This document shows, piece by piece, positions 34,077-60,407 of a stretch of DNA of 64,000 nt (within the stretch, counting starts at the first letter, position 1; each line of letters begins with the position of its first letter). The stretch is taken from the NCBI RefSeq assembly GCF_018446385.1, contig NC_055992.1, positions 103,186,947 to 103,250,946 of the forward strand. The letters are read 5' to 3'. The DNA comes from Zingiber officinale (lineage: Eukaryota > Streptophyta > Magnoliopsida > Zingiberales > Zingiberaceae). Position numbers and translations under genes: made by a program. A model generated the notes under the pieces. It was not told the origin of the DNA and ran no database searches. It was given only the letters and a program-made list of their open reading frames with translations.

Positions 34077-37000
34077 CTAATGTCCAGTCATCCCTGATAA
34101 ATGCTTCCGTATTGCTCTATCCTTTCTGTGGTGATTCCCACCTCCTCTCCTTCCTCTTCCTCGCTGAGATGAGTTCCCTCTACCTGAATCTCCTGCAGGA
34201 TCAGATATCTGATTATCCTTCTCCTCGGCATCCAACAATCTCCTAACAGCTCCAATTGGTAAATTTCCACCACGACCCAGACCATGGATCATCTCTTTCT
34301 GGGCTTCATTCACAAGAGCTGCATCTTGAGCATTTAAAACAGCAACTGAACCTGAAACCTTATAGCTATAGTTCTTCCCATCCTTGACATAAAATTGTGT
34401 CTTCTTTGAATTCCATTTTGAGTTAGAATTTGATGAAGTTTCTATCTCTGAGCCAGTGGGCATTCCTGGAATAGGCCTAACTCTCTCAGTTAAGTAATCT
34501 GCCTCCTCACTTACTGATTCGACTATACTCAGACCTAAATCATCGAATGAATCATCATACTCATCTTCGTATTCATACTCTGCTGCAAGTGCTGCAGTCT
34601 TTGCTGCATCTTTGGTAGTTTTATAATCAAGAATAGCAGAATCAGCCACAACAATATCAGTCTTTCTAGTGTATCGCCCAGCTGAAGATGAGAAAGAAGA
34701 AGACGTGGGCCCATCTTCAACTTTACTCATCGACATGGAACCCATACTAGATGGGATGTTACCCTTTGGTTCAGGATCTATTAATAAACCTTTCCCCTTG
34801 TCATTCCTTCCAGACGCTTGTTTCCTTGATGGAATTTGTTCTAATGAAGTATCCAAAGATAATAGATCTTCATGAAGGGTTCCTTCTAGTATTCTCTGGA
34901 TCACTTCTTCAGGATTCTGGTTATAAACTTCAAGACAGGCAGATAGAAATCCTCTACCATATTCTGGAAAGAGGTCTTTGATTTGACTAATTTTAGACTC
35001 AGCAATTACAGTCTCATCAGTCTGTACTTTTCCATCGATTGAAGGGGTAAGGATCGTAGCTTCTCTCTCCCAGGACTTTGTATTTAGTGGGCTTGCAATA
35101 TTAATTAAATACTGAAATTGTTCCTCGTCCATATATAACCATCCTGTAAACAAAGTAGAAAATAGATAATCAGACAACAAAAACAACACACAATCACATC
35201 AAAGTTAGAGACGTATCATCATTAGCTAAAATCCTGTTTCTAAACCTAATGCAGCCAGTTACATGGGCTCAATTCCTCAACGTTGATGTCATGTATATAT
35301 TCCTGCAGAAGATGGTGACCTACCCGGGGAAATTAACCAAAATAAAATATCTACTCTAACAAATCTACCTAATGAATCCACTACCTAAAAGAGTGGTTCT
35401 AAAGGCTAAACAGGAGCCAGACATAAGAATCTTGCTCTCAAATACCAGCGATAACCAAGTTTATGTTAGGGCACAATCATAGAAGATAAATTAATATTGG
35501 CTAATCAAGCACACTATGAGACTAACCAGGCCGTCAAATTACCAAAAGCATATCAAAATCTCAAGTAACTGATAAACTTTGTCAATTAATTAGTTAGATT
35601 TAAATCTGATAATAACCTAAGAAATACGAGTCTCAAGCAAACCAACAATTTGGACCTATGATTCGCTAGAATCTGAAAGTGGGTGAATACCAGCAAAGCA
35701 ATTAGGCTCTGAAATTCATTTACTAAATTATGATGTAGGCCACAACTATGATCTTTATGCCACAGAAAAAGTCCCTTCCAAATTCAACACTTGAGTTTAT
35801 GAGTTTGGAATGCAATTGGATGATCATTCAATACTACCAGGTCATATTGAGAAAGCATTCTAACGCATTTTCAATGAAAATCTGAAATGTTCATCAACAG
35901 AATTACAGGCAGATGCAAGATGAAAAAAAAAAAGAAAAGAAGCAACTATTTTTCAGTAACATGGAATAAATCCAGCTTAAGAAGATGGAGGTCAAACAAC
36001 ATACCAAATGGAATATCAAAGTTATAGAATTACTAGACAAATCACAATAACAATCAGAAAGTAAGATTAACTTACCATTCCTTTGAAGGTTGTTAATGTG
36101 GTTCAAAATCTTGAACTCCTTTTCAAGTTTCTGGAGAAATCTTTCATTACCATGATTTTCAGAGAAATTATAAGAAATTTCCTCATTAATCTCTTTCATA
36201 GTATGAACAATAATGTCACCTCTTATTACAGGATCCTCTACTTTCGCAGGTAACATTTTTGAAGTGGTCTGAAGGTTATCTTCTATTGGATTATCACTCA
36301 AATAGCAATAGTTGAGCAATTTCCAACCAAAATTAACAATTCTTCCTGACAATATTCTTTGGCTGATAAGCGTATCAGTGACCATATCATTGGGATTTGA
36401 TGCCATATCAGACTTTGAACTAGATATAATTTTAAAACTTTTCTGCAAACATGGTAGCAACGAATCATGCAACCTTGCTAGAGTTTTGAGCATATCTCCA
36501 CCCCCATGACTGAAAAATGAAATAACATACAAAATTCAGAGAGAAAAAATCACGATGTCTATTTCACAATGATAGCAACAAAAGCAGACACCTGAACTCA
36601 AGTAGAGAGAAGTACAAACTAGCAGGTGCATATGTAGCGGCAAATGCATCTAGCGTCATGATAGCATCATTCACAAAATCCATTACCTGAAGATAGATCA
36701 AATACTTAAAAAACCATAATTGCATAACTCAGAATGGTACCTAAACATGTTGCAAAAAAAAAAAAAACGAAAAGTGACTTGCCTCCAAAAAATCCTTATA
36801 CAGTTGACCACATCCATGAATTTCTTGTCCTCCAGATGAAAACAATACCTAAGAGCCACATCAGTCAAATGTTTTTTGCATGCTTTGTTGTTGAAACACA
36901 AACAAAAGAAGATTTCCAGATTCATTATAATAAAGTTAACTCTAAATCTTGGCAATATTCTCCAAAAACATTTGAAATCTGAGAAATAGCAATAGATCAC

Positions 37001-39075: not shown

Positions 39076-41932
39076 GGCGTCGCGAGCTAGAGGCGGCGGC
39101 GATGGAAAGGGGATCGACGCAGAATAACTTGGGAAAGGGTGAGTAAATATCGAAAATAAAATTGATTAAGGTCAGGTAAATAGGCGAAAAAATAAATAAA
39201 TTCATTTAGCCTCATTATTAGTGCTGGGTGACTGATCGGTTTCATAAAATTTTTTTACTGGCTACTATCAAGATAAATTAAGATGTATAATATTCATTAG
39301 TTGTGTGTGCACCTTATTTATAAGAAAAAATTTTATAAATAAATTATAATTGGAAAATTGAATCATGAGTATTTGGATGACAAACTAAATATCTTATCAT
39401 GGTACTGTAACCCTAGGGACAAGTAAATAGGCGAAAAGAGCATTAACAAATGATAGTATACATCTAATATCCAATAAATTTGTCATAGTTAAAATTAAAA
39501 ATATAGATTTGTATTGAACCGTGTATCTAAGTTGGTCAAATATTCATTTCACATAAGTTTTTTTGAAAATTTTCGAATCACATATAGGATATCGATTTTA
39601 CCCTCCAATTTTTCCCTCATGATTGTTGTGTGCATCCGAACCAAAAGAGAAGTATGAACCATGTCAATTTCTCTTCGCTACAAGCTTCCGAACTAACACT
39701 TACAACCAACAATGGTACAGTTTCTTCATCAAACCTAAACTTAAACACCATGTCATTTCCAACACTGACATGTTTTGATGGTCTACAGCACAGTGCAGCA
39801 ACTCAACGAAGACAAATGACCCTCCTCCAGACCACTGAAGTCATAATCAGCAAACACAACCTTCCTCCTGGTCATGTCCGACTATAACGGTCAAGCGAAA
39901 CCCAGGTATATTCTTTTTTTGGTCAGCGCTCAAATCTTCCTGTAAGGCGAAGCTTCTTTAAAACTGAAGTTTCGTGCTTTGGTTTGGTGTAAATTCTGAC
40001 AGCACCAAAACCCTCGACACTGTTCACTGTGTGGCGAAGCATCTTCAAATCTTCTTGAATTGCAAGTATTCAAGAAAAATTCTAAAATATCGACAACATT
40101 TAAAATCCTACCGAGGACAAAATTTTTCACTGTGAATAATTAAGACATGTATTTTCTTCTACTGGATTTCCCTTTTTTATAGATAATTAGTATTATTAAT
40201 TTATAGGAAGATTAACATTTCCAATTTTTAAATATCTCTATTTAACTTTTATAATCAAAATCCTAATTATGTCTTTATTTACAAGATAATTACTTCTAAA
40301 AGGATAAATCCTAAAAGATTTATAATATAATTTTAATAAGATACACATTTAATGATCTATTGACTTCCTCTATTGTAAATTTTAAATATTCACAATCTTA
40401 TATAATTTTTGTCACAATATGATTAATTTATGATTATATCAATACATGGAAGATCAAATTTCTGATGAGATGCTCAGAGTTATTATGCAATCTATAGATT
40501 CATAAATAAAGAATTGAAACAAATCCATTAGTTCAAATATGGTTAATTTATAATTGTATTAATACATGGAAGATCAAATTTACATTGAGGTGCTTAGAAT
40601 TATAATGCAATCTATAGATTCACAAATAGAGAATTGAAACAAATCTATTACTCCAAATATAAATATGATTACCAACAATATGTCACCTTCAACTTCCTCT
40701 AGTGTTATGGTTAATACTAGAGAGACTATTAATTACAGTTTCAATTTGAATGAACAAACTCCTAGTTTTAAGGATAACCCAGTACTTACAGGATTGGAAG
40801 ACCTTTCTGAGGACATGTAGACTGAATAAGAATATAACGAGAATAGAATGGAAGTGGAAATTCAAATGGATGTTTCTAAGGATAAATTCTTAGTAAATGA
40901 TATGCACTATTCATTAGATGAGTCAATCAACACTAGCAAAATTCAAAGAATATTTCTTTGAATTTTCCTTTCAGATATTACAAATAAATCAAACTCAATG
41001 TATTTAACAAAAGCAAAATTCAGATTAAAGAAAATATAATTACTTTAATCAAAATTAAATATCATTGCATAAATGTCAACTTACTTTAATAACATTCAAT
41101 CTCATAGTCTTAATTTGATTGCCCCTGCTTTTCTTTTTATTAACCTCTTCTTCATCCTCAATTTCATCCTCAACTAATATAATTTTATCTTCTTCTTTCA
41201 TATTAAAATCAACCTCCCTAGACTTTATCTCCAAGTTACCCACTTCACCCTCTTTTTTTTCTCCTGGTCTTCTTCCTACCTAGGACCAATGTTAGCCAAT
41301 TAAGTGCATCTTTAGTGGTGAACCTAAGGTTATAGTGACTTCTTTGATGCCCTCTCCTTGTCACATTGGTTGAAACGAGGTTAGGATGAGGATCTTTGGT
41401 AGGGTGGCTAGTTGGATAAGAAATATCCCTTTTCCAATATGACGACTAATTCTCGTTTAACTTTCACTAAACTTTCATTATCGAGTGTAAGCTTTTGGAT
41501 TTGTTTTGGATTTTCAGTGCAATGAGAACATCTAGTTTCTTCCTCTAAGTCTATGTGAAATTTTGAAGTAGATGTCTTATCCTGTTGTGGTATTGACTCA
41601 AATTTAATAAGGATGGAGGTACCAAGTAAATTTACTTCCTCGAGAGGTAGGGAGAATATCAACAATAATCTACAAAATCAATAACGATATATAATTAATT
41701 AAAAACATTTAACTATATAAGATGAATTTAGCATGAGTTGAAATACACATAATGGTTACCTAGCTAGGTAAGACTCTTGCTAACTTAGCCTTTGTTTTAT
41801 TTTTATGAGAATAAGTAGATCTCCACTTACTTATCCTTGGTGTTACAATGTTGTTTGTCACTTGAATAGGGACATGCTTAAGAAACCAATCCCGTGTCAT
41901 AATTCAACAATTAGATACCGTTGATGTATTTA
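39076..41932. other. AT-rich intergenic region, origin unresolved
   Basis: No convincing gene. It contains a 120-bp tandem duplication (40415-40654). Weak open stretches occur on both strands (about 40680-40990 plus and 41100-41665 minus, the latter Glu/Lys-rich). They are interrupted and match nothing I recognise. The region flanks the Tekay-like solo LTR on its left. Its pre-insertion neighbour is the stretch starting at 57053. Confidence 0.5.
40415..40654. repeat. 120-bp tandem duplication
   Basis: Two consecutive units with an exact 120-bp period share AATACATGGAAGATCAAATT and TGCAATCTATAGATTCA. They differ by roughly a tenth of positions, so the duplication is not recent. Confidence 0.85.
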
Positions 41933-42042
41933 TGTCACGCCCAGGGGGTATAGTTCCTGGTATCTCACTCAGTGACAATATAATACAAAGAAACCCTAAG
42001 AACAATCTAAACATAATAATTAGGAAATTTATCAAATTATAT

Positions 42043-42941
42043 TGATCCGGCGATAAGAACAGGGGACCCTCGTTGTAAGGGGTCAACGCCACGTGGAAGT
42101 TAAAGAGTCGGGCGGTCCATCGAAGAAGGTCGGACCAGCTAGGCTGACCGACCGGGAGGCCAGATTGGACGACCAGATAAATTAGGCTGACCGTCCGGGC
42201 GGCCATCCAGTGTTTAGCTAGGCAAAAAGGCACCCTTATGGAAGGGGTTCCGACGCTCATTGGGTAAGATCGTAGGGCCGAGCGTACAGCACGCTCAGCC
42301 GAAGACATTAAGCATACTGCTGACAGTCACCACAAAGCACTACCGATAGTTTCCCAAGTGCACTATCATACGTGACCGGTCGGACAGAAGACGGACATGG
42401 GTCGGCCTGATATCGGAGGTCGTCCGGCCGGACGCTCGACGGTCAGCTGGTCGACGTCCTCTAGTGCAAGAATCGAGTGGAAAAGGACAAGGGACATCTT
42501 TTTCTGACAGCAAGTAGGTCGCACGTGTAGGCCATGCTCCAAATCTTATGACAGGGGATTCCGCTGTCCCATCAAGGACATGCGGGGACTGTAGCAGTAT
42601 GGGGTCAAGTAAGCTCACTGACGGGCCTTTACTATGGTATGGGCAGAGGACACGTGTACACCTCGGTATGTGTGCACCTGTTTCTCCACAGCCCTATATA
42701 AAGCCTCTCATCCTTCACCGGAGGTACGTTTTTGGGCTATGCGTTCTGAGACTTTGGGAGCCACCTTTTTTATCGTTGTTTACCTGACTTGAGCGTCGGA
42801 GGGTCGCTGCCGGGAACCCCTTCCCGGCCCGACTTTGGTGCAGGTTCGCCAGAGCATCGTGCCACCCATCGAAGATCCACATCAGCAGTCGAAGAGTGCC
42901 TCGTGCCCAGCGTCCGTTGATTCGGCCTTCGGACAGGATCA
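42043..42941 (+). repeat. 5' LTR of the Tat element
   Basis: 899 bp, TG...CA, with a TATATAAA box at 42695-42702, 652 bp into the repeat. The same box sits at the same offset in the other LTR. Confidence 0.95.
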
Positions 42942-42986
42942 ATTTGGCGCCGTCTGTGGGAACGCTCCTGCATCCGAACGGAAACA

Positions 42987-45097
42987 ATGGACGAGGCTGG
43001 ACGACAACACACGGTGACGCTTTTGACGGAGGAACTCGACGCCTTGATCGAGATAAGGGCCGCCAAGCTTGTGGAGCAAAAACAGAAAGCCACAGCCGAG
43101 CGGCCGGAGCAGCAAGCAACCTCAGCTTCTGGTGGCCGAGCGGAAGCACCTCAAGCCACCGTTGCATTCCATCGAGTCTTATTTCGCACCCCCGAAGCTG
43201 CAACAACTCACAGAGACCGGGGATCTTCTTCTGATGAAAGACCCAGACGAGATGATAGGAAAGGGAAAGCCCCCCGATCGGACGCATCGCCCGAGCGGAT
43301 TAACCGCCAATTTTCAGAAGCCATCTTGAAAGATCCTCTGCCAAAGCACTACGTGCCTCCGATGATCGGCAAATATAATGGGACAACCAACCCAGATGAT
43401 CATCTGGGTAAGTTTGATAACACAGCCACGCTCCATCAATACACAGATGGAGTAAAGTGCCGAGTTTTTCTTACCACTCTTTCGGGATCGGCTCAACGGT
43501 GGTTTCGGAGGCTGCCGGACGGATCTATCACAAGCTTCAAGGACTTCCGAATGGCCTTCCTCCACCATTTTGCGAGCAGTCGACGCTATCAAAAAACGAG
43601 CGTGAGCCTGTTCGCCATCAAGCAGGAAGCCCGCAAATCACTCCGAGTTTACATACAGCGGTTCAACAAAGTGGCAATGGATATTACAACGGCCACTTCG
43701 GAAACCATGATGAACGCCTTCACACAAGGGCTAGTGGATGGGGATTTTTTCCGATCGCTCATCCGAAAGCCGCCCCGGGACTATGATCACATGTTACACC
43801 GGGCAAACGAGTACATCAACGTGGAGGAAGCACAAGCGGCAAGGAAAAAGGAAACTCCAAGCGAGCGGGCTCCTCAGGCCGAGCGGAAACAGAACGCCAC
43901 TCATCAGCCGCCTAGAGGACCCAGGGCCGAAGCAATCCGATCCACCCACGCAAGGTCCCATGTGCAAGAGGTAGCGGCCGCCCGACCCAAGCGAAAGAAG
44001 AGATGGACCTCGATGTTCTGCTCCTTCCACCGGACGGATACGCACAACACAAGGGATTGTCGAAGTCTTCCCTTCGTGGCTCATCCTGTGCCCCGGAATG
44101 CCGGACGACGGTCTCCCTCAGTCGACAGGAGACAGAGAACTCATGAAGCCGATCGGACGCGGTTTGATAGACCACGGCAGCAAACTCCCGATCGGCATCG
44201 TTCTCCAAGGCAGGAGAATCGCCGAGCGTCCAGAGAACGGTCTCGACCGTCCGCTCGGGAAGAGGAAAATAGAAGTAATACTTCCCGAGGTGAGATTAAC
44301 GTTATTGCTGGCGGGCCGACCGGAGGAGACTCCAACCGAGCTAGAAAGGCGAGCGTCCGACAGCTCCAGATTCACGTGGTCGGTTGTAGCCAAGAGCGGG
44401 CGAGCGGACCAGAAATCCTTTTTGGGCCCGGGGACTTGGAAGGAGTTGAAGTGCCCCACGACGATGCCCTGCTCATCAAAGCGGTAATAGCCAATTATAC
44501 TATTCACCGCGTATTTATTGACACAGGGAGCTCAGTAAACATCATATTCAAGAAGGCGTTCGATCAGCTGCAAATTGATCGAGCCGAGCTGCTACCCATG
44601 ACAACTCCGCTCTACGGGTTTACGGGTAACGAAGTTCAACCTGTCGGACAGATCTGGTTGGCTATCTCGCTGGGAGAAGAGCCGCTCAAGAGGACAAGGA
44701 CAATAAACTTCGTGGTGGTTGACTCTCCCTCGTCCTACAACGTCATTTTGGGACGACCGGCGCTCAGTGAATTCCGAGCGGTAGTCTCAACCTTTCATCA
44801 GAAGATCAAGTTCCCCATGGAGGACAAAGTGGGAGAAGTGCGGGAAGATCAGCTAGCAGCTCGGCGATGCTACATCGAGATGGTCCGAGCAGAAGCCCAT
44901 TCCGCTCGGAAGTCACCCCGGATCGAGGTAAACGCCATCACCGAAAAGTCACCCTCTTTAATTTATAAAGAAAAAAAGGAAGTGCGGATTCACCCAACCC
45001 GATCGGAGGCCACGACTTTTATTGCGTCCGATCTGGAGGAGAAGCAGAAAGAGGAGCTAATCCAATGCCTTCGAAGAAATCATGATGTCTTCGTCTG
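42987..45097 (+). pseudogene. Tat element gag and protease region (fossil)
   Basis: The gag region contains the retrotransposon gag core (KCRVFLTTLSGSAQRWFRRL, FRMAFLHHFASSRRYQKT) and a basic, Arg-rich nucleocapsid-like stretch with a zinc-knuckle-like CSFHRTDTHNTRDC motif. The aspartic protease follows with FIDTGSSVNIIF and NVILGRPAL. The region stops at the Sirevirus solo LTR insertion. Confidence 0.9.
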
Positions 45098-45680
45098 TGT
45101 TAGGATCCTTCGTACGGCTAGAGAGGGGGGGTGTGAATAGCCGCCCCAAATCTTTCGCGTTTCTTCCTACAATTCGTTAGCGCAGCGGAAAAATAAACTA
45201 GAAACGAAAGGAAGAATATCAAACCTTAACACAGCTATGTACGAGGTTCGGAGATGATGCTCCTACTCCTCGGCGTGTCCGTAAGGTGGACGAACCCAAA
45301 TCAATCCGTCGGTGGATGAGTCCCCGGAAAATCGGCTAATACAAACTCCTTCTGGGTGGAGAAACCTCGCCACACTTATTTGCAACAGCAAACAGGAGTA
45401 CAAGTACAAAGAATAAGCAAGAAATACAATAAGAATACACAAGCACTCTACCAATCTTGCTTTCTCGTCGACTGGAGTCCAGATGAAGCAGCAGCTTCAA
45501 AAACCCTAACAGCAGCAGCTGTTCCAGTCGGGGAAGCTCACGCGAAGCTTTCGGAAGGAACTCAACAGAGCTCTTATCGCAGCCCACAAATCTTCAGCAG
45601 AAGAGAGGAAAAGTAGGAAGTAGAAGCACAGAAGATGCCCTCGATCCTTTATACCTGTGAAGGAGAAACAGCGAAGAAAC

Positions 45681-46040
45681 TAGCCGTTGCGTCGCAACGG
45701 CTAGAACCCTGATCGGTCTGTGGACCGATCAGGGAAGAAGCCTTCGCTTCTGTTCCGTCCCTGATCGGTCCATGGACCGATCAGGGATCCTCCTGATCGG
45801 TCCACAGACCGATCAGGGAACTTCCTGATCGGTCTGGGGACCGATCAGGCTTTGTGCTGATCGGTCCCCTGACCGATCAGCCCCTCTTGCGCCTCGCTCC
45901 TGTTCGGCTTCTGATCGACTCCTGATCGGTCACCAGACCGATCAGTTATCACACAGTATGCTACTGATGTGTTACTGATCGGTCACCAGACCGATCAGAA
46001 TATTCGCGGTATCACTGGATCGATCACCAGATCGATCCAG
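45681..46040. repeat. cluster of about nine palindromes in the Sirevirus LTR
   Basis: Eight inverted repeats of the form CTGATCGGTC-N4-GACCGATCAG (the last is a variant with GATCGATC) follow one with arms TAGCCGTTGCG/CGCAACGGCTA (45681-45703). Arms are kept complementary while the central four bases vary. Repeated short palindromes in LTRs are a known feature of Sireviruses. Confidence 0.9.
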
Positions 46041-46299
46041 CTCATGGTTTTCGCCCAAACCAAGTCCAAACCAACATCCGGTCAATCTACATTATGCCTA
46101 GCATCTGGTCACTCCCTTGACCTGCTAGCACTCCCCGCTAAGTGTCCGGTCAATCCTTTTGACCCACTTAGACTTTTCCACACCAGATGTCCGATCATCC
46201 CTGATCCATCTGGATTTTCCACTTCGTGCCAAGTATCCGATCACTCCCTTGACCTACTTGGACTTTCCAACACCAGAAGTCTGATCATCCCTGATCCAT

Positions 46300-46635
46300 C
46301 TGGATTTTCCCTTGCCTGGCTTCACTCACCAGGACTTTCACCTGGCTTCACTCACCAGGATTTCCACACTGCCTAACATCCCAGTTAGGACTTTCTCACT
46401 GCCTGGCTTCACTCACCAGGACTTCTCCGTGCCAAGTCTCCATACTTGGACTTTCCGTGTGCCAAGCTACCTGCTTGGACTTTTCCCGTGCCAAGTCTCC
46501 ATACTTGGACTTTTTGCGTGCCAAGCTCCCTGCTTGGACTTTTCCAGTGCCAAGTCTCCATACTTGGACTTTTCCAGTGCCAAGTCTCCATACTTGGACT
46601 TTCCAGTGCCAAGATCCCTGCTTGGACTTTTCCCA
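46300..46635. repeat. array of about 30-bp repeats in the Sirevirus LTR
   Basis: About seven clear units of the type TACTTGGACTTTTCCAGTGC plus CAAGTCTCCA run from about 46430 to 46635. Looser relatives (TGGCTTCACTCACCAGGACT) lie from 46300 to 46430. The period of 30 is a multiple of three, which makes long but meaningless open frames. Confidence 0.85.
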
Positions 46636-46882
46636 AATCAGGTCAACCAGGTCAACCTTGACCTACGGTTGCACCAACAACCTCCCAAACATCTATTCTT
46701 GTCCCATATCAAGAATAGAACTCTCTCACGAGTGTCAAACATCAACATGCAACTCAACTAGGTCAACCTTGACCTAAGGTTGCATCGACAATCTTCCTAA
46801 GTCAAACATCAAAATACAACTCGAGTCAAGTCACCTCGAGTCGGGTCAACCAGGTCAACCTTGACCTAAGGTTGCACCAACA

Positions 46883-48640
46883 GTCTGGTCGACACATGAG
46901 CTGCCTGGAATTTCGCCGAGCATAGCGCAGCATGAATTGCATGTCCGACCGGACGCTCGGCCGGTAAAGCAGAGAAAAAGAGATTTCAGCGCCAAACAGA
47001 ACGCCATCATCCGGGCGGAGGTGGAGAAGCTTCTGGAAGCCGGCTATATACGCGAAGTGCAATTCCCGAGCTGGCTGGCGAACGTAGTCTTAGTCTCCAA
47101 GCCGGACAACAAATGGAGAGTATGCATAGATTTTCGGGATCTCAACAAAGCCTGCCCGAAAGATTTTTATCCTCTGCCTCGGATAGATCAGCTGGTTGAT
47201 TCTACGGCCGGCTGTGAATTAATCTGTATGCTCGACGCCTACCAGGGCTATCACCAAGTGCCGCTCGCCCGTGAAGATCAGGAAAAAGTCAGCTTCGTGA
47301 CTGCCGATGGCACTTATTGCTACAATGTGATGCCGTTCGGATTGAAGAATGCGGGGGCCACATATCAGCGCTTGATGAATAAAGTTTTCCGAGAGCAGAT
47401 CGGGCGGAATCTAGAAGTTTATGTGGACGACATTCTCATTAAATCCGTCCGGGCGGCGGATCTCTTCAAAGACATGGAGGAAACCTTCAGAACGCTGCGC
47501 AAATATAGAGTCAAGCTAAATCCCCAGAAGTGCCTGTTCGGAGCAAAAGGAGGGCGTTTTCTGGGATACATAGTGACCGAGCGGGGTATTGAAGCAAATC
47601 CTAGCAAGGTGAAAGCTCTGCAAGACATGCCGCCGTCGAGAAGCACGAGGGAGGTGCAGCGTTTGACCGGTCGGATAACGGCTCTCTCCAGGTTCATCTC
47701 CAAAACTACCGACCGGAGCCTCCCATTCTTCAAAATCCTGCGCAAGGCCACTAAATTTCACTGGGACGAAGAATGCGACCGGGCATTTGAAGATTTGAAG
47801 GCATATCTGAACTCCCTCCCAGTGTTAGCCAAGTCGGCTGCGGGTGAGCCACTGTGTATTTATTTATCTTCCACCGAACAAGCAATTGGCTCAGCACTAG
47901 TGAGGGCGAGCGGAGAGGAGCCGGTGTATTTCCTCAGTCATATTTTAAAAGACGCTGAATCTCGCTACACCGGGCTCGAAAAGTTGGCGTTTGCTCTGGT
48001 CCTCGCCGCTCGGCGACTTCGCCCATACTTCCTGGCGCATACTATTATCATCAAGACCAACAGCCCGCTCGGGCGAGTGCTATTGAATCCAGAAGCTGCC
48101 GGGCGACTCATCAAGTGGACGACGGAATTAAGTGAATTTGACATCCAATACCAGCCCCGCTCGGCGATCAAAGCGCAATCCTTGGCCGATTTTGTGACTG
48201 AAGTGCAAAGGCCAGAGCCGGAAGCTATGTGGAGAATATATGTGGATGGGTCGTCCACTCGGCTCGGAAGCGGGATTGGAATATTGTTACTCTCCTCTCA
48301 AGAAGAGAAGATGCACGTATCCGTCCGGCTGGATTATAAAGCTACCAACAATGAAGCAGAGTATGAGGCCCTCATAGCTGGCTTGCAGGCAGCTCGGCAT
48401 GTGGGAGCCGGTCGGGTAACGCTTCACTCGGATTCGCAGTTGGCCGCTCAGCAACTCTTTGGTACCTTCGAAATTAATAGTGCTCGGCTCAAGCTCTACG
48501 CGGAAGCCTTCGAAAAGCTAAAAGCTGACTTCAGGGAAGTTATTGTCCAGAAGATACCCAGAGCAGAAAATCAAGCAGCCGATGAGTTAGCCAAACTCGC
48601 GAACTCAATAACGCCGGTCGCCATTCAACAATCAATGAAA
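46883..48640 (+). pseudogene. Tat element reverse transcriptase and dual RNase H region (fossil)
   Basis: Reverse transcriptase motifs include WRVCIDFRDLNKACPKDFYP, MPFGLKNAGATYQRLMN and YVDDILIKS. The gypsy-type RNase H follows (LCIYLSSTEQAIGSALV, SHILKDAESRYTGLEKLAFA). Then comes a second, archaeal-type RNase H (WRIYVDGSSTRLGSGIGI, ATNNEAEYEALIAGL, LHSDSQLAAQQL, RAENQAADELAKLA). The second RNase H is a hallmark of the Tat lineage. Confidence 0.93.
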
Positions 48641-48649
48641 AAGTACTGT

Positions 48650-49923
48650 TGGTGGCGCACATCGACCGGATCGAAGGCCTCACTTTTCCATGCGACTGGC
48701 GGACACCCATCATAGAGTTTCTCCGCTCGGGAGCCACACCGTCCGATCGGAATGAAGCCCAGCTGCTAAGGAGAAGAGCCGGTCGGTTCACACTCATCGG
48801 CGATCAGCTTTACAAAAAGGCTTTCTCATGTCCGCTGTTGAAATGCGTGAGCTCGGAAGACTCGACTTACATCCTCCAAGAAGTACATCAAGGATCGTGC
48901 GGAGGACATCCGGGCGGACGAGCACTAGCTAAGAAGATCCTGCTAGCCGGATACTTTTGGCCGACCTTACAAGCAGACGCCGCTCGGACAGTGTCTACGT
49001 GCCTTTCGTGCCAGAAGTACCATAACTTCTCCCACCGACCGGCCGAGGAAATGAAGACATAAACCGTTTCATGTCCGTTCGATCAATGGGGAATGGATAT
49101 TGTTGGTCCATTCCCGATGGCGACCGGGCAGCGGAAATTTTTGCTAGTGGCAGTTGATTATTTCTCCAAGTGGGTGGAGGCCGAGCCGCTAGCCAGGATC
49201 ACCGAACAGATGGTCAAAAAATTTATCTGGCAACACATCATCTGTCGATTCGGCATCCCTCGCCGATTGGTATCAGACAATGGGCGGCAATTCACCGGGA
49301 AGATGCTAGAGGATAGGTGCAAAAGCTATGGTATCGAGCAACACTTCACGTCCGTGGCTTACCCTCAAAGCAACGGTCAAGCCGAAGTGGCCAACCGGGA
49401 AATTCTCCGTATTTTGCGCGCTCGGCTCGACCATTTGGGAGGAAGTTGGCCAGATGAGGTGCCGGGCGTCTTATGGGCTATCCGAACGGCTCCAAAGGAA
49501 GGGACGGGCGTCACGCCTTTCCACTTGGTGTATGGCGGCGAAGCAGTCATTCCTGTTGAAGTGGGAGTGGAATCCGGTCGGATCCAAAGTTATGACGAGG
49601 ACAACGCCGAGCGGAGGAACCTGGAGCTGGATTTGGTCGATGAAGAAAGAGCCAAGGCATCCGTCCGGCTGATGGCGTACCGGCAGCGGATGAAGCAAAA
49701 CTACAACCGCCGAGTAATTCCCAGATCATTCCAGATCGGCGATCTTGTGTGGAAGAAAGTCAAGCCGGTCGGCGACGTCGGCAAGCTGGAAGCTCCCTGG
49801 GCAGGCCCCTTCAAGGTTATTGAAAAGCTCCGCTCGGGCGCTTATTATCTGGACGATGAAGACGGGCGTCAATTGGACCGGCCCTGGAGCGTGAATCATT
49901 TCCAGCCTTATCGGGCCGGGTGA
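48650..49923 (+). pseudogene. Tat element integrase region (fossil)
   Basis: The zinc-binding part (VHQGSCGGHPGGRALAKKIL, then CLSCQKY) precedes the catalytic core with MDIVGPFPMATGQRKFLLVA, DYFSKWVEAEPL, LVSDNGRQFTG and YPQSNGQAEVANREIL. A C-terminal domain ends near PWSVNHFQPYRAG. Confidence 0.93.
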
Positions 49924-50065
49924 AAGGTGCACTAATACAACTTTTGCATATATTTTGGTCGCCCGTACCCTTGTAATGCAGGATGCCAAATTAATTCAAA
50001 GGATGGCCAATGGGTTTGCTGAACTATTGTCGCCGAGCGGGTTGTATGGGAGTTAGCCTTGAATC

Positions 50066-50512
50066 GACCGTCGAGCTCCGACGTTAAATATCGAGAGACG
50101 AGCCGGCGTCTATAAATAATCCGAGCGGAAGACCGTCGAGCTCCGACGTTAAATATCGAGAGACGAGCCGGCGTCTATAAATAATCCGAGCGGAAGACCG
50201 TCGAGCTCCGACGTTAAATATCGAGAGACGAGCCGGCGTCTATAAATAATCCGAGCGGAAGACCGTCGAGCTCCGACGTTAAATATCGAGAGACGAGCCC
50301 GCGTCTATAAATAATCCGAGCGGAAGACCGTCGAGCTCCTACGTTAAATATCGAGAGCGGCTGTGTTAAAAATAATCCGGAAGACCGTCGAGCTCCGACG
50401 TTAAATATCGAGAGACGAGCCGGCGTCTATAAATAATCCGAGCGGAAGACCGTCGAGCTCCGACGTTAAATATCGAGAGACGAGCCGGCGTCTATAAATA
50501 ATCCGAGCGGAA
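50066..50512. repeat. 65-bp satellite array in the Tat 3' region, seven units
   Basis: Six units of 65 bp and one shortened unit of 57 bp (about 50326-50382) fill 447 bp. Each full unit contains GACCGTCGAGCTCCGACGTT and a TATAAATAAT box. Units are nearly identical, so the array expanded recently. Tandem arrays downstream of integrase are common in Tat elements. Confidence 0.9.
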
Positions 50513-50845
50513 AATACCCATAAAAGGGATGCGGTTGCCCCAGAAACCCGTCTTCAATAGTTAGATCGTCTCTACGGTCCGCTCGGCCTAGCACCTAAAG
50601 GTACATAGGTGTCTAGCGAGCGATTTTTGCAATCAGAGCGGAATATTGAATAGTTGAAATATTGCGTATGAAGCCGAGCGGAAATATGATGCCAAATACT
50701 TAAGCGAGGTGATAATAGGCGAGCGGGCAACACATATTCGACAGCAAAAAGAGTACGTGAAAGATAAGCATTGCATTAAAATTCAAGCTTAAGGCTGAGC
50801 GGCCTAAGTACAAAAAAAGGTCTTTTTGGCCTAGCGGCCTAGAGT

Positions 50846-53131
50846 CTATTCAATGAAGTCATAGAGGTCCCTCGGAATATTGCTTAGAAGTGCCACCTGA
50901 TCGCCGGCCGGAATATTGGTGGATTCCGGAAGAAGGCCCTTCGACTTCAGATAGGTCATAGTGGCAGTAATGGCCAAGTCAAAAGCTGAGTACATCCGCT
51001 CGCAAATTTTCTCTGAGAATTCAGGCGATCGGATGTAACTCTGTCTTAATGCAGCGATCCGGCTTGGCTCGGCATCTTGATATTCTTTGAGAGCTGCCTG
51101 GGAGCCGGTAAGGGCCTCATTTAACTGCTGAATCTTCTCCGCGTCACCCGAATGGCTCGCCTTCTCCTTGTCGAGCTGCTCTGTCAACTCTTTTATCTTC
51201 AGCTCCAGGCCCCGAGCCTCCACGTTCTTCTTCTCCAGGTCGGATATAGCAGTATTCTTCCGAGTGGTGGCCAGAGTTATTTTTGTGTCAAGCGACTTGA
51301 CTTGTCGCTCGGACTGGGCCAAGGCGTGGGCCTGGTCGGTCGTCTTCTTCTGCTCGCCCGCCAGCAGATTTTGAGCTTTCTTCAGCTCCTTTTGCAGCTC
51401 GGAATATGAGGGGCCTTGAGAACCGGACGGACCGACTCCCGACTTCAGTTGTCGCAGTTCTTCATCCACCATCGCTAGGCGGTTGGAAACTGCTATCTCT
51501 TCCACCCATCTCTGGCAATAGAAAAAATTAAAATTGGTTAGTGGCCGAACGGCGATAGCGCATCCCAAACCTCGAAGAAGACAAACTTACCCCCGTGGCC
51601 TCTTGCATATGACTGTTGGCCAAGTTGCGTAGGGGGATCAGTGCAACCCGCTCCCGAGCATCAGCCCACATCTCGGCTAGGGGCCCCTTTAAAGTGATGG
51701 TGTGCTCGGGCACGGTCGGGCGGTCGGCCTCGGGCATCAACTCTTCGGTCGGGAGATGAAGAGAGACTCGGATAGTGCGGCCATGTCCGGGGATTGTTCG
51801 ACCGGCACCCGGAAGGGGATCAAAAGCCGGCGCAGAAAACTGCGAATGAATGGTCGAACGTTGGACTGAATGGCGAGCAGGTGGGAGAGTGCTGACCGGA
51901 GTGGCCTCAACCGGAGCAATTGGCTCATCCCAGTCAGAAGGAGTCCGGTCGGACGAAATGGTTTCGGTCACCGGCGCCTTGCCTCGAGCAGTCGCGGCGG
52001 CCCGGTCGGAGGGTTGAACCGCGGAGGTAGCAGAGCGCAGCGGAGTCTCCACCCGGCGCCTCTTTTGCAGGGGTTGCTCCTCCTCCCGAGCGGAACCTTC
52101 CTCGGGGGTCGTTGGTTCTCCTGAGAGGGTAGCTCCGCTGGCCACGTGCTGTTGAGAAGCCTGAGCGGCCGATTCAGCTTGGGTGCCGCTCTCTCCCTCA
52201 TGGGAGCCGACCAGTTGGATGCCCCGCGCTTCCATTTCCTTGGCCGCTGCGGCTTCCAAAGCCGCCGCCTTTCTCTTCAGAACGCCAGCCATCACCGAGT
52301 CCATGACGATGTCAGCTGCAGGAAAAAGAAAAGAAATCAGTTAGCAATTAAAGCAAATGCCCAAGCAAAATTCTTACTGAATCCGGTCGGAAGAGGAGTC
52401 CGTATAGGACTCAGCCCAAAAATGTACATCACTCCCTCGTGAAGAAGTTTGTTGATGTCGAGTCGCAGACCGGCTAGTACATTGGCGGCATGAAGATAAT
52501 CCGGTCGGGTTTTGAATTTCTTCAACTCGGGAGTAGGAGGTAGACTGACCTGCCACTGGGTCGGGAAGTTTGCCTGACTGGGCATGCAGATGTAGAAATA
52601 ATAATCCTTCCAATGTTTATTGGAGGTGGGTAGTTTGTTGAAAAAGACCAAGCCGGGCCGAGCTTGGAACATAAAGGTGCCCGGCTCGGCTTGCTTAGGG
52701 TAGTAGAAATAAAAGAAGACCTCCGGTCGGAGGGGGATGTTGTGAATCTTAAACAAAACGACAACACCGCAGAGGAGACGGAAGGTATTAGGTACTAAAC
52801 TTCCGAGCGACACACCAAAATAATTACAGACATCTACAATGAAAGGATGTACAGGGAACCGCAGACCGGCGGTAAACTGGTCGCGAAAGACACAGAATGC
52901 ACCGCGAGGCGGTTTGTTCGGCCGAGCGGAGGGACCAGCTAAGCGAACTTCGAAATCCTCGGGAATTTCGAAATTGTCTGTCAAAATATCGAAATCTCGT
53001 TGTTCGAATCGGGACCGCATGGTAGTATACCATGGGCCGAGGGATTGTTCTTCGGGATGAGAAGAACTGGCCATGAGCCGGATGGAAGAAATCAAAAAAG
53101 GGCAAAAAGGCCAGAGGAAAGCAACCGACAA
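50846..53131 (-). pseudogene. antisense additional gene-like region of the Tat element (fossil)
   Basis: Three open blocks lie antisense to the element, between integrase and the 3' LTR: about 52337-53131, 51580-52304 and 50846-51520. They are separated by short gaps that look like introns with AG-type acceptors. The first block has FCVFRDQFTAGLRFPVHPFI and VCNYFGVSLGSLVPNTFRLL, the pattern of plant transposon-associated proteins. The second is Ala/Ser/Pro-rich and disordered. The third is a coiled coil ending IPRDLYDFIE. Antisense extra ORFs of this kind (for example gene 23 of Grande) are known in the Tat lineage; their function is not known. Integrity was not judged further. Confidence 0.75.
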
Positions 53132-53710
53132 CGAAAAGAAGTTTCAAGGATTGGAGCTAAGGAAAGAAATGCGAATGAGACACCAGAAATAAGGAAGGGA
53201 AGTGATAAAGCCTTACAGAGAAGAAAGGGATCGAGGAAGGGGCACCGGAGAGCAGAAATCGGATCGCCGGAGCTCCAAAAGCGCAGGATGCAGTGGTGGA
53301 AATCGCGGAGGTAAGTGAGGGAGAGAAGGAAACGAAGAATTTATAGGGTGAAGGCCGGGCGGTCCACACCGTCGGATCCAGTCACGGGAATCAAAGCATG
53401 CATCTAGCCGTCCATTTCGAATTGCTTCGATCACATCAAAATACCATGTCACTACCGCCGTACGCTGATGGCAGCGCTCCACGTGGCATTCAATCATTCG
53501 GAGCATTTAATGAAAGCATGCTCAACCTTAATGTCGAAGATTGGCGCAGAACACGAGGGGATCCGGTGAATACCATTGTTGGTCCGTTCAAGGTTATATC
53601 TATGGTTGACCGAGCGGAGGGTACTAGCACGAAGGAGCCGTTCGACCATACTCGCAGTCCAGTCAGTCGGACTAATCGCTTCCTTCGACAAGACTTGAAG
53701 GGGAGGCAAG

Positions 53711-54605
53711 TGATCCGGCGATAAGAACAGGGGACCCTCGTTGTAAGGGGTCAACGCCACGTGGAAGTTAAAGAGCCGGGCGGTCCATCGAAGAAGGTCG
53801 GACCAGCTAGGCTGACCGACCGGGAGGCCAGATTGGACGACCGGATAAATTGGGCTGACCGTCTGGGCGACCATCCGGTGTTTAGCTAGGCAAAAAGGCA
53901 CCCTTATGGAAGGGGTTCCGACGCTCATTGGGTAAGATCGTAGGGCCGAGCGTACAGCACGCTCAGCCGAAGACATTAAGCATACTGCTGACAGTCACCA
54001 CAAAGCACTACCGATAGTTTCCCAAGTGCACTATCATACGTGACCGGTTGGACAGAAGACGGACATGGGCCGGCCGGATATCGGAGGTCGTCCGGCCGGA
54101 CGCTCGACGGTCAGCTGGTCGACGTCCTCTAGTGCAAGAATCGAGTGGAAAAGGACAAGGGACACCTTTTTCTGACAGCAAGTAGGTCGCACGTGTAGGC
54201 CATGCTCCAAATCTTATGATAGGGGATTCCGCTGTCCCATCAAGGACATGCGGGGACTGTAGCAGTATGGGGTCAGGTAAGCTCACTGACGGGCCTTTAC
54301 TATGGTATGGGCAGAGGACACGTGTACACCTCGATATGTGCGCACCTGTTTCTCCACAGCCCTATATAAAGCCTCTCATCCTTCACCGGAGGTACGTTTT
54401 TGGGCTATGCGTTCTGAGACTTTGGGAGCCACCTTTTTTATCGTTGTTTACCTGACTTGAGCTTCGGAGGGTCGCCGCCGGGAACCCCTTCCCGGCCCGA
54501 CTTTGGTGCAGGTTCGCCGGAGCATCGTGCCACCCGTCGAAGATCCACATCAGCAGTCGAAGAGTGCCCCGTACCCAACGTCCGTTGATTCGGCCTTCGG
54601 ACAGG

Positions 54606-54609
<4 letters not shown>
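53711..54609 (+). repeat. 3' LTR of the Tat element
   Basis: 899 bp, equal in length to the 5' LTR with no net indel, with a TATATAAA box at 54363-54370. The polypurine tract lies immediately upstream. Confidence 0.95.

Positions 54610-54677
<68 letters not shown>
54610..54677. repeat. (AT)n microsatellite abutting the Tat 3' LTR
   Basis: About 68 bases of pure AT dinucleotide begin with the TATAT target duplication of the Tat element. The other flank of the element has only a few AT bases. Confidence 0.95.
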
Positions 54678-54681
<4 letters not shown>

Positions 54682-55918
54682 CTTTTTCATAGACAACAAA
54701 ACTATATAAGTAAGATGACACCTGAAACAAAACAAAAATACAATGAAACACAATTAAAACAAAATAGGAACTAGAACGTCGAGATCTCTGAGTAACTCTA
54801 TGTAAAGTTAGGACTAACTATAATATTAAAAGGATCTTTGTGTCTGCAAAACTGGAGGCCAAGGAATGCAGAAAGTTAGCAAAATGGCTAAGTGGGTAAT
54901 CAAGAAAGATGTGCATGAATTTAATCTTGTTTAAGAAATCAAAGGAGTAAAGTAAATCACCATCTTTTATTACAACTTTAAGTTATTATTTTTAAATTCT
55001 CCATTTATATATATATATATATATATAATCATCTTCAATTATCATTATCTATAAGCAAGTAATATTTTTATATTAGAGTTTAGGATTTTCACTTTATCAT
55101 CATTTATTATCATCAATTAAAATCAATTCTCCAGTCTTACTATTTAATCAATCGGTATACAAGCTATCATGGTAATATCAACATGTATCAATGGTCTAAA
55201 TATGATAAATCAACTAAAAAATGAATCACTAGAGCCAATATCATCAGAGTGTAATGTCATATGTATAGGTTAAAGCTTCCTCAGAATATAATTCTATCGC
55301 ATACGTCATTTGACGTATGGGCTATCAACTCTCACTGGTGGAAGATATAATAAACATTGATTGAGCGTTACATCACGCCACCATGCCTCAGGTATATGGT
55401 CAGGTACTCTGAACCGTGGGTCACCACTCTACCACAATAACATGTGGGTGATCTAGTACTCCAATATAAAGCTCTGGTATAAAGCTAGATTCATAGTCTT
55501 CATTTTTTTTAATATTCTTCATTTACTATCTTTGTTATTTCACTTTAAGGATTTCATTTTATCCATTTATCATAATTAGTCTCTTTTCATATCAAATGGG
55601 CAATCAAGTTAATACTTTCGTACCAAGTCTATTAATTTATCCTCCTAGGGTTCACAAATAAAAAGCTATAAGTATCAATAGGTAGAACATCAAAAAGCAT
55701 AGAGTATGAAAGGTTAAATAAGTCAAAAAGACAAGTATCAATAGAAGAGTAATTCAGAATATTTATTTAATTTTAAAACAACCCTTCCCATATTAATTCC
55801 AGTATGAACCCACATGTGAACAAGAAATAATATCAATTATTTTTCCTCCATGATTTTATTATTTTAACCCATTTCATTAATTGTAATATCATTTTAATTC
55901 CTTTTTAAAAATAATTAT

Positions 55919-55922
<4 letters not shown>

Positions 55923-55989
<67 letters not shown>
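55923..55989. repeat. (AT)n microsatellite
   Basis: About 67 bases of pure AT dinucleotide inside the Tekay-like solo LTR. A shorter run lies at about 55006-55026. Confidence 0.95.
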
Positions 55990-55993
<4 letters not shown>

Positions 55994-57003
55994 CATTATT
56001 CATGCACAAGGATAAATAAGAGAGATGTACCCATTTATATATAGCAAAATCTTCGAGTGTCGACAGGTCATCGTGCTGCACTCGAGCTCGGGTCTACAAA
56101 CATAATACCAAACATAACTTAAATAATCAAAATACTATCTAATAAGAATAATGACCTAAAAACTAAATATTGTCTATGATTCGAAATCGGTGAATAATTT
56201 TGATCTCGCTATCTCATACCACTTTGCATTCCTAAATGAAACCTCTGTTCTAACCTAGATAGCTCTCCTAACTATACATCGATTAATACAAAGCATAAAA
56301 TATACCTTCTACGGGTTACTGTGGTTGCTAGAAAAAGAGGATAGCAACTAGGGTTGTTTTCCCTTTATCGTTGGTCGTCTCAGCTAGCTCCGACGAGCTT
56401 CGGTGGTGCTGCCAAGAAGAGGACAACAGCTAGGGCTGCTGTTGGAGAAAACAAAAGGTAGCAAGATGCTATTGCTGGTGGGGGAAAAAGGAGAGAGCAA
56501 CTAGGGTTGCTATTCTTGGCTGTTGGAGGAGAAGAAAGGCAACAATGTTAGTTGGAGAAGGTTGAAAACAGAGAGGATGACTGCTGGAATAGTAAAGGGA
56601 AAGGAAACCTTTTTTCTTTTCACCGGTTGTCTTAGTGAGCTCTGACAAAGGCCACAGCTAGCTCCGGTGGCTACTGTGCTTGGCTAGAAAAGAGGGCAGC
56701 AACTAGAGCTTTGTCCCCCCTTCCTTTTCTAATGGCCCAACGAGCTCTGATGCACTCTGAGGAGCTCCGACAGTGCTGCCAAGATCAAGGGCTAGTGGCT
56801 GGAGAAAAAGGCAGCAAGGCTACCTACTCTGCTCTTCACTAGAGGAGGAGAAAAGGTGTGAGAGGAGGAAACAAGGGCTGTTGTAATTTTTCTACCGTTG
56901 AAGAGAAGCAGAAAAGAGAAGGAATGGGAGAAGAAAAAGAAAATAAAAGTCAGGGATGGGATGGAGAAATGGGCATGAGCGTGGTAGGTATGGACTTGTC
57001 CTC

Positions 57004-57028
57004 TTATTATTATTATTATTATTATTAT
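57004..57028. repeat. (TTA)n microsatellite
   Basis: A run of TTA/ATT triplets close to the minus-strand start of the Tekay-like solo LTR. Confidence 0.9.
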
Positions 57029-57052
57029 CATTATTTTTTTTCATACTTAACA

Positions 57053-58225
57053 ATTTATGAAATAAATTAACCAACAATCAAAACTTATAACAAGGAGACC
57101 AGCAAATTCCTTCATATAAGGTAGTGAGAGAATAGACCTAGGAGTCTTCGATGCAAAAACATTCTCAAATATTGAGAGTTGATAAGCCATATAATTATAT
57201 ATTGCCTCAACCTAATTATAACTTCCTAGATTGTCAAATCATCAAAAAAATATATATAATCCTTAAAGGTAGCTTATATATACTAGAAGCAAATAAAACA
57301 GAAAAAAAGATACAAAATATAAAATTTACAAAATAGCAAAACATTCTTATTTGAATGGACTCGGAGACAATATGTCCTCATTAGATTTTTCAATTTAGAT
57401 AGATTTAGTTCTTTACTTGGAAAAAAATATTTCGAATAATGCACCAAAAGCAACAAGGAATCCATCTCGACGTGTCTGCCACTATTTTGGATTCCAAGCA
57501 ATAATGTTACATCTTTGGTTATGAAGGACACATCTATGTTAAAGAATTTGAATGTCTCTTCTACTAAATCTCAATTCTTAAATATGTTTACCAGTAAATC
57601 CCCTAAGATGTTGAATTTCAAGTATGCCGAGGAATAACACAAAGGGACCACTTCTTATAATACTGATGTATTTTTCATGGAGTATAACTCCTGAAATCCT
57701 TTGTCTTTCCCTTTGTGGAAGTTTCAGAATAAAAATTTATGATATGTCCCAACTTGCTCATCCAATGTAACTTGTCATCCAAAGTTGATAATTGAATCTC
57801 ACTTGCTAAACTTGATGTAATTATTTTACTTTCTTGTCGTATAACAAAACAACAATCAAGTTTTGTAAAATTCAATCAAATATCTTTAGTAACACAAAGT
57901 TAAACTAAATTTAGTCACTGGCTCTCTACAAAGAATGAAAACATAAATAACAATTATGGAATTAAAATGAATTCAAACATAAATAACATATAATCTAAAA
58001 AATATTAAATTTATTGATAAGTTAAATTAAGTTGATAAACTAAGAAAACAACATGATGAGATCTATACACAAATAAGGGGTAGGTTAGAAATGATATAAC
58101 CTATTAGATTAAGAGATCCTTAACACATTTTAGGTAGAAAGTATGACATAGAAGAAATCAAAGTGCAATTTGTACTAAAGTTAAATAGTATTAACAATTC
58201 ATTTTATAGTGTTAACCTATTTAGA
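57053..58225. other. AT-rich intergenic region, origin unresolved
   Basis: This lies right of the Tekay-like solo LTR. Before that insertion it adjoined 41928. Broken minus-strand open stretches (about 57283-57531 and 57675-57875, the latter with TLDDKLHWMSKLGHI) hint at a decayed coding sequence, but I cannot assign a family. No gene is supported. Confidence 0.4.
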
Positions 58226-58581
58226 TTAAGGTGGTGTTTGATACATGGGTATGGGAATGAGGGATTGAATTCATTCTCAAACCTTATGTTTGGTTGATGG
58301 GAATGGAATCAAGATTTAAGAATAAAATGCAAAACTTAGGTATTGATGAAATTATCTCCTCCCTTGGATTTTGATAGAAATGGGAATGAGAATTAAGTTT
58401 TGGATAAAAGTACCCTTAATATATTTGTTAAAATTTTCTTTCATATTACTTTCTCTCTCCTTATTCTCTCTCATCATATTTTCTCTCTTCTCATTTTCTC
58501 ATCACACTTTCTCTCATCATACTTTCTCTCTCCTCATTCTCTTTCATCACGCTTTCTCTACCATTTCTCTCTCATCATGCA
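58226..58581. mobile_element. possible small DNA transposon fragment, interrupted by the copia element
   Basis: The stretch GGTGGTGTTTGATACATGGG, then GGGAATGAGGGATTGAATTC and TTTGGTTGATGGGAATGGAA, resembles end motifs of plant MITEs that start GGGTGTTTGG. It runs into a CTCTCATCATACTTT-type low-complexity tract and stops at the copia LTR. The other half and any target duplication would lie beyond the window. Confidence 0.3.
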
Positions 58582-60407
58582 TGTTGGGTTTTTCGGGCCG
58601 CGAAAACCGCTTTTCGCGTCGCGAAAACCCCGAAACACCCAGCCACGGATCTGTGCGAAGTAAAAACTTTCGAAAGCATACGAGTACGAGTTTACAAAAC
58701 CTAGATCTACTCTAGATCTACAAAGAAGAAGAGCTTATACCTTCGATGCGTGCCCTTTTCATATCCCACTCGTCCAACGAGATGTCGAATCTCAAATTGT
58801 CAAGGTAGACAACTCTCTATGCGTATCCACATGAACAACTCGATGGAGGGAGAACCTTTGACTGTGCTAGCACTCCAAGAAGGTCTCGGTAATGGAGAGA
58901 AGAGGGAGAGAAGAATTGGAGCAAGGAAGAAGATGAGAGTTACACTTGCAAAATGAAACTTATTTCATCCAATAAAGTGGCCGGCCACTTATGTGGTTTG
59001 TAACCTCCATGGGATACCAAGAGTCACAACTCTTGGTAACTCCCATGAGGTGGCACTTCACTTAAGTAACCATGGTGATGTGGAGCATTATCATTGGTCC
59101 ACTTAATGTCAACTCACCAATGAGGTGACATAAAGTCAAGTCAAACTTGACTCTTCATCTTCCTCTCAAGTCAAGTCAAACTTGACTTAATCTCTCTCAT
59201 GGTTGATCTAATCCAACCATTTAATTCAAGCCAATTTAATATAATGAATCTTATTCATTTAATTAAATTGATTAAATGAGTCATAATCTAAATTAGACTC
59301 ATTGAACATATGAATCAACTTGAGTCCAACTCAATTAGCCCAATTAGGATTACTCTTAATCCAATTTGATTCATCAAATGAATCTAATCCTCTTTGTTCA
59401 TCATATGAACCTAATCTCCATCTAATTGTCCTTAGTGTGTGACCCTATAGGTTCTTGTAACGTTGGCAATGCCCCTAAACCCATTTAGGAGCATAAGTAA
59501 TGAGCGGTATCTAGCAACACATCATTACTACCCAAGTTACAAGAATGTTGAGATCCAACATCACCTTGTGACTACTAATTGTGACTCCTCACAATATATG
59601 ACAAGTGTCCTTCTATCCTAGACATCTAGATTGATCAATGTGAGGCATAGACCGTGTTATCCTCTGATCAATCTAAATCTTGAACTCCAAGTAGACTCAC
59701 TAAATCAAATGAGCTCAATATCTCATATTGACTCATTTGGGCATGACCATGCACTTCGTGGTCTCACTCTATCAAGAATATCGATGTCTCTCCCGTCATA
59801 TAGGAGGGATAGATCCCATCTACATCACTCACATCCCTCTGCATAATTCGTTACATACCCAGTAATTGCCTTTATAGTCCACCCAGTTACGGGCGACGTT
59901 TGACGAAACCAAAGTACATAACTCCTTATGTAGGGAGCCATGGTGACTTCAGGTCTAAGGACTAGTAGTCATACTAATAGCCACATGAGAAAGTATATGA
60001 CACTCATATAACGATCCATGATACTTTCTCATGGCGGGTCATTTAGTATACATTCTCCAATGCATACCCATGTATCAACTTGATATCTCTATATCCATGA
60101 CTTGTGAGATCAAGTCATCGAGTTGACCTACATGTTAGTCTTATTGCATTAACATTGTCCCTGAATGTTAATACTCGACTAGGAATGATTAAGAGTAGTG
60201 TTCCGTACATCATCTCACTATCGGTTCAACTAACTGATTGATATAGGTGAGAACCGTCTACTCAAGGACGCTATTATACTTATTTTATTTAGCACCAATA
60301 CAAGTAATTATAATAACCAAAATACATGCCTTTATTTATATAAGAATATGATACAACAAGTCCATAATACAATCATCAAATGATTGGTTCTAGGGCTCTA
60401 ACTAACA
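58582..60407 (-). repeat. 3' LTR of the copia element
   Basis: A 1826-bp repeat. On the minus strand it begins TGTTAGTTAGAGCCC and ends AAAACCCAACA. A TATATAAATA box lies at about 60331-60345 on that strand. The partner LTR is outside the window, so the boundary rests on the TG...CA ends and the adjacent polypurine tract. Confidence 0.8.

Follow-up and report, generated by a model that had tools for sequence, protein, structure and literature searches.

How many retrotransposon insertions built the stack of long terminal repeats (LTRs) on chromosome C7 of ginger, Zingiber officinale, in what order did they occur, and has the loss of element interiors there been selective? The sequence concerned, which we call the window, is a stretch of 64,000 nucleotides (C7:103186947-103250946 of the 3.09-Gb assembly; positions below are those of the window unless a chromosome is named), and according to its published description the assembly is haplotype-resolved, with both haplotypes present (PMC8342452). 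A first-pass annotation of this DNA had proposed a three-level nest, in which an outer solo LTR with the target duplication ATTTA was hit by a Tat element with the duplication TATAT, which was hit in turn by an inner element, now a solo LTR, with the duplication GTCTG. Our analysis leads us to conclude, with a probability of about 95%, that retrotransposons inserted three times in succession at this site, in a dispersed repeat. The proposed boundaries and duplications proved exact, and empty sites were found for every level. In all DNA searches of the genome, only the best 40 places per query were scored.

At the outermost level, target copies ATTTA at 41928-41932 and 57053-57057 enclose an LTR that runs from 41933 to 57052 with the Tat element inside it, and that is about 2.55 kb long once the insert is removed. 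Its first piece (41933-42042, minus strand) is the 3' end of the LTR, starts where the LTR of a two-LTR relative at C9:33494845 does, and closes with the target copy TATAT (42038-42042); 39 other scored places, C8 included, match this piece. The second piece (54610-57052, minus strand) begins with the other TATAT copy, in a (TA)n tract, and carries the 5' end of the LTR at 57052. The host sequence to the left (40953-41932, no strand assigned) ends with the target copy ATTTA and, from position 40953 onwards, can be aligned with dispersed copies (L042, L044, L051 and L052, for example); the part to the right (57053-58240, likewise without strand) starts with the second copy. The left flank matches 38 scored places at 82-87%, besides C7 and C8, and the right flank 39 at 79-86%, besides C7. 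Because the flanks themselves are a dispersed repeat, the nest has one more layer under the outer LTR. Eleven related host-repeat places could be aligned across the junction (L041-L046, L049 and L051-L054; L042/L044 and L051/L052 look like allele pairs and may be counted twice), and all of them are continuous from flank to flank with a single target copy (nine have ATTTA, two AGTTA), demonstrating that the outer LTR is an insertion.

The relative on C9 (C9:33494845-33504836) has LTRs of about 2.38 kb, the target TATAC on both sides and the LTR ends TGTCAC...CTTAACA; the right end CTTAACA is also present in copy L077. Read on its minus strand, it has a gag with zinc knuckles (E 6.3e-7 and 7.4e-12), a primer site resembling TGGTATTAGAGCC and, at the integrase end, an SH3 domain (E 3.5e-26). 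From this single relative, read in pieces that do not include its reverse transcriptase (RT), we read the outer LTR as lying on the minus strand and as being of chromovirus type. A gag with zinc knuckles and a chromodomain at the integrase end are marks of the Tekay/Del group. The Tekay/Del label given to the outer LTR at first pass, here kept as putative, is consistent with its length and layout and with the gag, zinc knuckles and SH3 domain of the C9 relative.

Self-comparison of the window gave a single long LTR-like pair, 42043-42941 and 53711-54609, which is 899 bp long, gapless and 97.66% identical. These are the 5' LTR and the 3' LTR of the middle element, both on the plus strand, and their ends recur in paired LTRs of relatives. 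Both are flanked by TATAT, on the left at 42038-42042 and on the right at 54610-54614, where the copy passes into a (TA)n tract of about 68 bases. Between them, the plus-strand gag-protease part (42942-45092) has a Retrotrans_gag match (E 1.6e-17) and aspartyl protease matches below the cut-off; its open frame, 42921-45140, continues into the inner LTR. The remaining pol domains, namely RT, RNase H, a second RNase H (RVT_3, E 5.7e-19, located after RT_RNaseH) and integrase, lie at 46888-49923 on the plus strand in a frame broken between about 48.59 and 49.06 kb. The element thus combines a pair of LTRs, bounded by 5-bp target copies, with the Ty3 order of gag, RT, RNase H and integrase. A second RNase H is a mark of Tat, and the middle element shares it. 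Between pol and the 3' LTR lie a 65-bp tandem array (50066-50512, no strand assigned), which is also found in relative L064 and is longer there (L064, 1-811), and antisense open frames on the minus strand (50846-53143), the one at 52340-53143 carrying PF04195 (Transposase_28, E 1.6e-9). The second RNase H, the antisense PF04195 frame and the array fit the Tat lineage proposed earlier, which holds at a broad level; by its sequence the element has Retand (Tat) features.

The inner LTR, 1785 bp long, lies on the minus strand at 45098-46882 and interrupts the Tat frame between protease and RT. On the plus strand it is bracketed by paired copies of GTCTG (45093-45097 and 46883-46887). Apart from the window copy, seven Tat relatives were retrieved (L064-L070, out of the 40 scored places); all are empty at this point, their sequence being continuous through a single GTCTG. 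A search with the inner LTR gave 13,214 candidates; among the best 40 places there are 10 pairs of the LTR with a start-to-start spacing of 5.1-5.5 kb, and the two-LTR relatives are about 6.9 kb long, with an interior of about 3.4 kb where both LTRs match fully. The possibility that the inner element is not an LTR was rejected, since two-LTR relatives exist. Because these relatives carry AGTGGTATCAGAGC and AAAGGGGGAGAT against the LTR borders, the inner LTR must lie on the minus strand of the window. Thirty loci were fetched, and at least three copies proved to be solo: the window copy and two with target copies of their own (L014, CTTTG; L015, GGTTA). Since L014 and L015 are also solo, interiors in this family have been lost at other places than the nest site. 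The inner LTR holds seven CTGATCGGT and seven ACCGATCAG boxes, and its two-LTR relatives have the primer site TGGTATCAGAGC and a polypurine tract abutting the LTR. The exact letters of this primer site are a mark of the Sirevirus group. For both families the genome search found two-LTR copies that end as the window copies do (the 10 inner pairs and the C9 element). The description of the outer and inner elements as solo LTRs holds.

These levels give the insertion order outer, Tat, inner, as first proposed: the 11 host-repeat places are empty of the outer LTR, the allele on C8 is empty of the Tat element, and the seven Tat relatives are empty of the inner LTR. We regard C8 as the allelic chromosome because window positions 35000-36200 have exactly two matches genome-wide, C7 itself and C8:90503675-90504876 at 99%. 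The C8 allele matches the window to 42042, continues in (TA)n and resumes with 54660-54924, and there is no LTR remnant. The Tat element, with the inner LTR within it, is therefore present on one haplotype only. By eye, C7 has about 68 bases of the (TA)n tract at this point (54610-54677), and C8 about 19.

Could C8 have carried the Tat element and lost it by deletion? Apparent deletions do occur on C8 a few hundred bases past the site. Compared with window positions 54926-58216, C8:90511587-90512368 (L055) jumps from about 54926 to about 55731-55757 and then enters host repeat beyond about 58190, which we read as two deletions that would have taken most of the outer LTR there. At the Tat site itself, C8 runs cleanly from AAATTATAT via (TA)n into the following sequence, with no trace of an LTR, and LTR recombination on C8 would have left an 899-bp LTR behind. 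An earlier presence of the element on C8 is therefore very improbable, and we favour an insertion on one haplotype.

Several points weigh against the three-insertion reading or against parts of it. The level-2 TATAT is not distinguishable from (TA)n by sequence alone and, because the target lies in such a tract, it is weak evidence by itself; it is the C8 allele that settles the Tat insertion. Aligning the two 899-bp LTRs, a dating step suggested at first pass, gave a distance of 0.0239 (19 transitions and 2 transversions in 899 sites). At a substitution rate of 1.3e-8 per site and year this would correspond to about 0.9 million years, an absolute age that we infer from that rate. Setting the LTR distance against the C7-C8 distance is not decisive, since the latter is uneven within the window and ranges from about 1% to 5%: about 1% was found at 35.0-36.2 kb, 0.0297 at 39.9-42.0 kb (2,137 sites) and 0.0547 at 54.7-54.9 kb (247 sites). 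Because of this unevenness the divergence date neither proves nor denies that the Tat element arrived after the haplotype split, and the empty allele is the evidence on this point. Owing to its own deletions beyond about 54926, C8 is also silent on whether the outer element was solo before the split. For the outer family, the chromodomain match in the C9 relative reaches 17.4 bits, below the Pfam cut-off of 25.1. The right end of the outer LTR, on which the C9 relative and L077 agree with our boundary, is not found in L078, one of three outer-family copies with that end read, which lacks CTTAACA. In addition, of 39 other places matching 56010-57052, two reach the very end and two nearly do, and none of the others matches beyond about query base 781. 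Most of them thus lose the match about 270 bases before the right end, suggesting that the last 270 bases of the outer LTR are poorly conserved.

The DNA is, moreover, repetitive, and the structures of C7 and C8 are known here from assembly sequence alone, so that the nest, or the difference between C7 and C8, might be thought an assembly artefact. The exact 5-bp duplications at levels 1 and 3, with their single-copy empty sites, are unlike mis-joins, and we consider this explanation extremely improbable. Neither is the nest a product of chance, because the same LTR ends recur elsewhere with other 5-bp duplications and empty sites exist at every level. We therefore retain the reading of three successive insertions.

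Boundaries, target copies, orientations, empty sites and the allelic absence of the Tat element were all observed directly, and the following course of events best accounts for them. A chromovirus, probably of Tekay/Del type, inserted first into the host repeat, on the minus strand and at the target ATTTA, and would have lost its interior through LTR-LTR recombination, the standard mechanism of solo-LTR formation. A Tat/Retand element then entered 110 bp inside the outer LTR, at the edge of the (TA)n tract, on one of the two haplotypes. Lastly, the Tat frame was split between protease and RT by a Sirevirus-like, apparently gag-only element in minus orientation, which would likewise have been reduced to a solo LTR by recombination. 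That both solo LTRs arose by recombination, and the time at which the outer element became solo, are the parts of this course that we infer.

We then asked whether removal had acted selectively, as the first-pass annotation claimed from the state of the three elements. Under such selectivity the outer and inner lineages would be prone to solo-LTR formation and the Tat lineage spared, and at the nest two lineages are indeed solo and the Tat element is not. The Tat family itself behaves otherwise. Its 20 best LTR places (19 at 88% or more and one at 77%; 8,425 candidates, best 40 scored) represent 13 insertions, which may include allelic double counts: seven have two LTRs and six are solo, or five of 12 if the distant copy at 77% is dropped. 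Left out of the count were the remaining 20 scored places, including a C6 pair with one flank fetched (L098). Five of the six solos have exact target copies, and those of the remaining solo agree at four of five bases. Of the seven pairs, five are exact (subject, for the window copy, to the (TA)n caveat), another agrees at four of five bases, and the last has ATTAG if the first LTR base changed. The Tat lineage, two-LTR at the nest, is thus often reduced to solo elsewhere, and the inner family retains interiors, with 10 two-LTR copies among the best 40 places beside the three copies shown to be solo. For the ginger genome as a whole, the published account puts the solo:intact ratio at 2.06 and describes removal as low (PMC8342452). 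With six of 13 Tat insertions solo and a genome-wide ratio of 2.06, two solos of three need no selectivity; we think it very unlikely that removal was selective, and the claim is rejected. Targeting of (TA)n by the Tat family was also considered and rejected, since the window copy alone of the 13 insertions with flanks read lies in a long (TA)n tract.

The interiors of the inner family deserve separate mention. In the relative at C17:82.43 Mb (C17:82430240-82440173; L013, L071 and L011), the primer site is followed, in the three interior pieces read, by an open frame of 480 residues or more; no pol was found in these pieces or in the end pieces read at C15, a Gag-like frame being the only one. 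In Pfam this frame matches zinc knuckles only (zf-CCHC, 21.4 bits, cut-off 20.8), with no match to a retrotransposon gag model at E up to 0.05, and we call it Gag because of its position and zinc knuckles. A 643-base stretch of it has 4,209 candidate places, 40 of them scored, and two more loci with the frame, read from 400 bases past the matched stretch, have the same non-coding interior (98%; 85-91%). Because the interiors were read without pol, we file the inner element under a Sirevirus-like non-autonomous family rather than as an autonomous Sirevirus; judged by sequence, the family apparently is gag-only and has Sirevirus LTR and primer features. The Sirevirus name first given to the inner LTR thus stands for the type of LTR and does not extend to the 6.9-kb relatives as a whole.

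Of the 14 copies read, 10 keep the Gag-like frame open across the available 1.5 kb. Among these 10 copies, chosen for their open frame, the pairwise ratio of nonsynonymous to synonymous divergence (dN/dS) between subfamilies is 0.15-0.34, the range for all pairs with dS above 0.08; closer pairs give 0.25-1.14, with one pair identical, and have too few changes to judge. We tentatively suggest, at odds slightly short of even, that the inner LTR comes from a large gag-only Sirevirus-like ginger family which borrows pol from other elements and keeps its own Gag under selection. The selection may also stem from a pol-bearing ancestor. Among the paper titles listed in literature searches, none concerns a gag-only Sirevirus family, which is not proof that none is in print. 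The family is a side result that deserves a proper family study.

For the one longer frame tested in the host repeat, on the minus strand at 57283-57570, a Pfam search up to E 1 found no match; by eye this frame resembles one in L044. After the host repeat, at about 58580-64000, there is a further putative element, by eye of Copia type and on the minus strand.

How do these elements compare with known ones? Like Sireviruses, whose LTRs have palindromic repeats with a CGG...CCG core, the inner family has such palindromes in its LTR (the CTGATCGGT and ACCGATCAG boxes), a polypurine tract against the LTR and a Gag-like frame beside the primer site (PMC2829016); it differs in its interior of about 3.4 kb, the parts read being without pol, and in a Gag-like frame that matches zinc-knuckle models only. 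Many Del groups have LTRs longer than 2 kb (PMC4029996), as the outer LTR does, whereas the chromodomain match of its relative stays under the cut-off and the lineage is a putative one. Tandem repeats and PF04195 frames in antisense, located between pol and the 3' LTR, are described as frequent hallmarks of Retand elements within Tat (PMC11963269), and the middle element has both; it differs in that its pol is split by the inner LTR and by one more frame break.

The nest as a whole resembles those described for maize among large plant genomes, in which younger LTR retrotransposons lie inside older ones and solo LTRs occur in the stacks (PMC2773423; PMC6911290). The ginger nest is a true, well-documented case of this standard nested stack and of ordinary plant genome dynamics, and it leaves existing knowledge of retroelement turnover unchanged. 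Unlike maize-type nests, each of its levels was compared with empty sites in the same genome, one of which is an allele. It thus offers a checked stratigraphy in which the middle insertion sets the two haplotypes of a single plant apart, useful as a worked example and possibly as a marker for ginger haplotypes.

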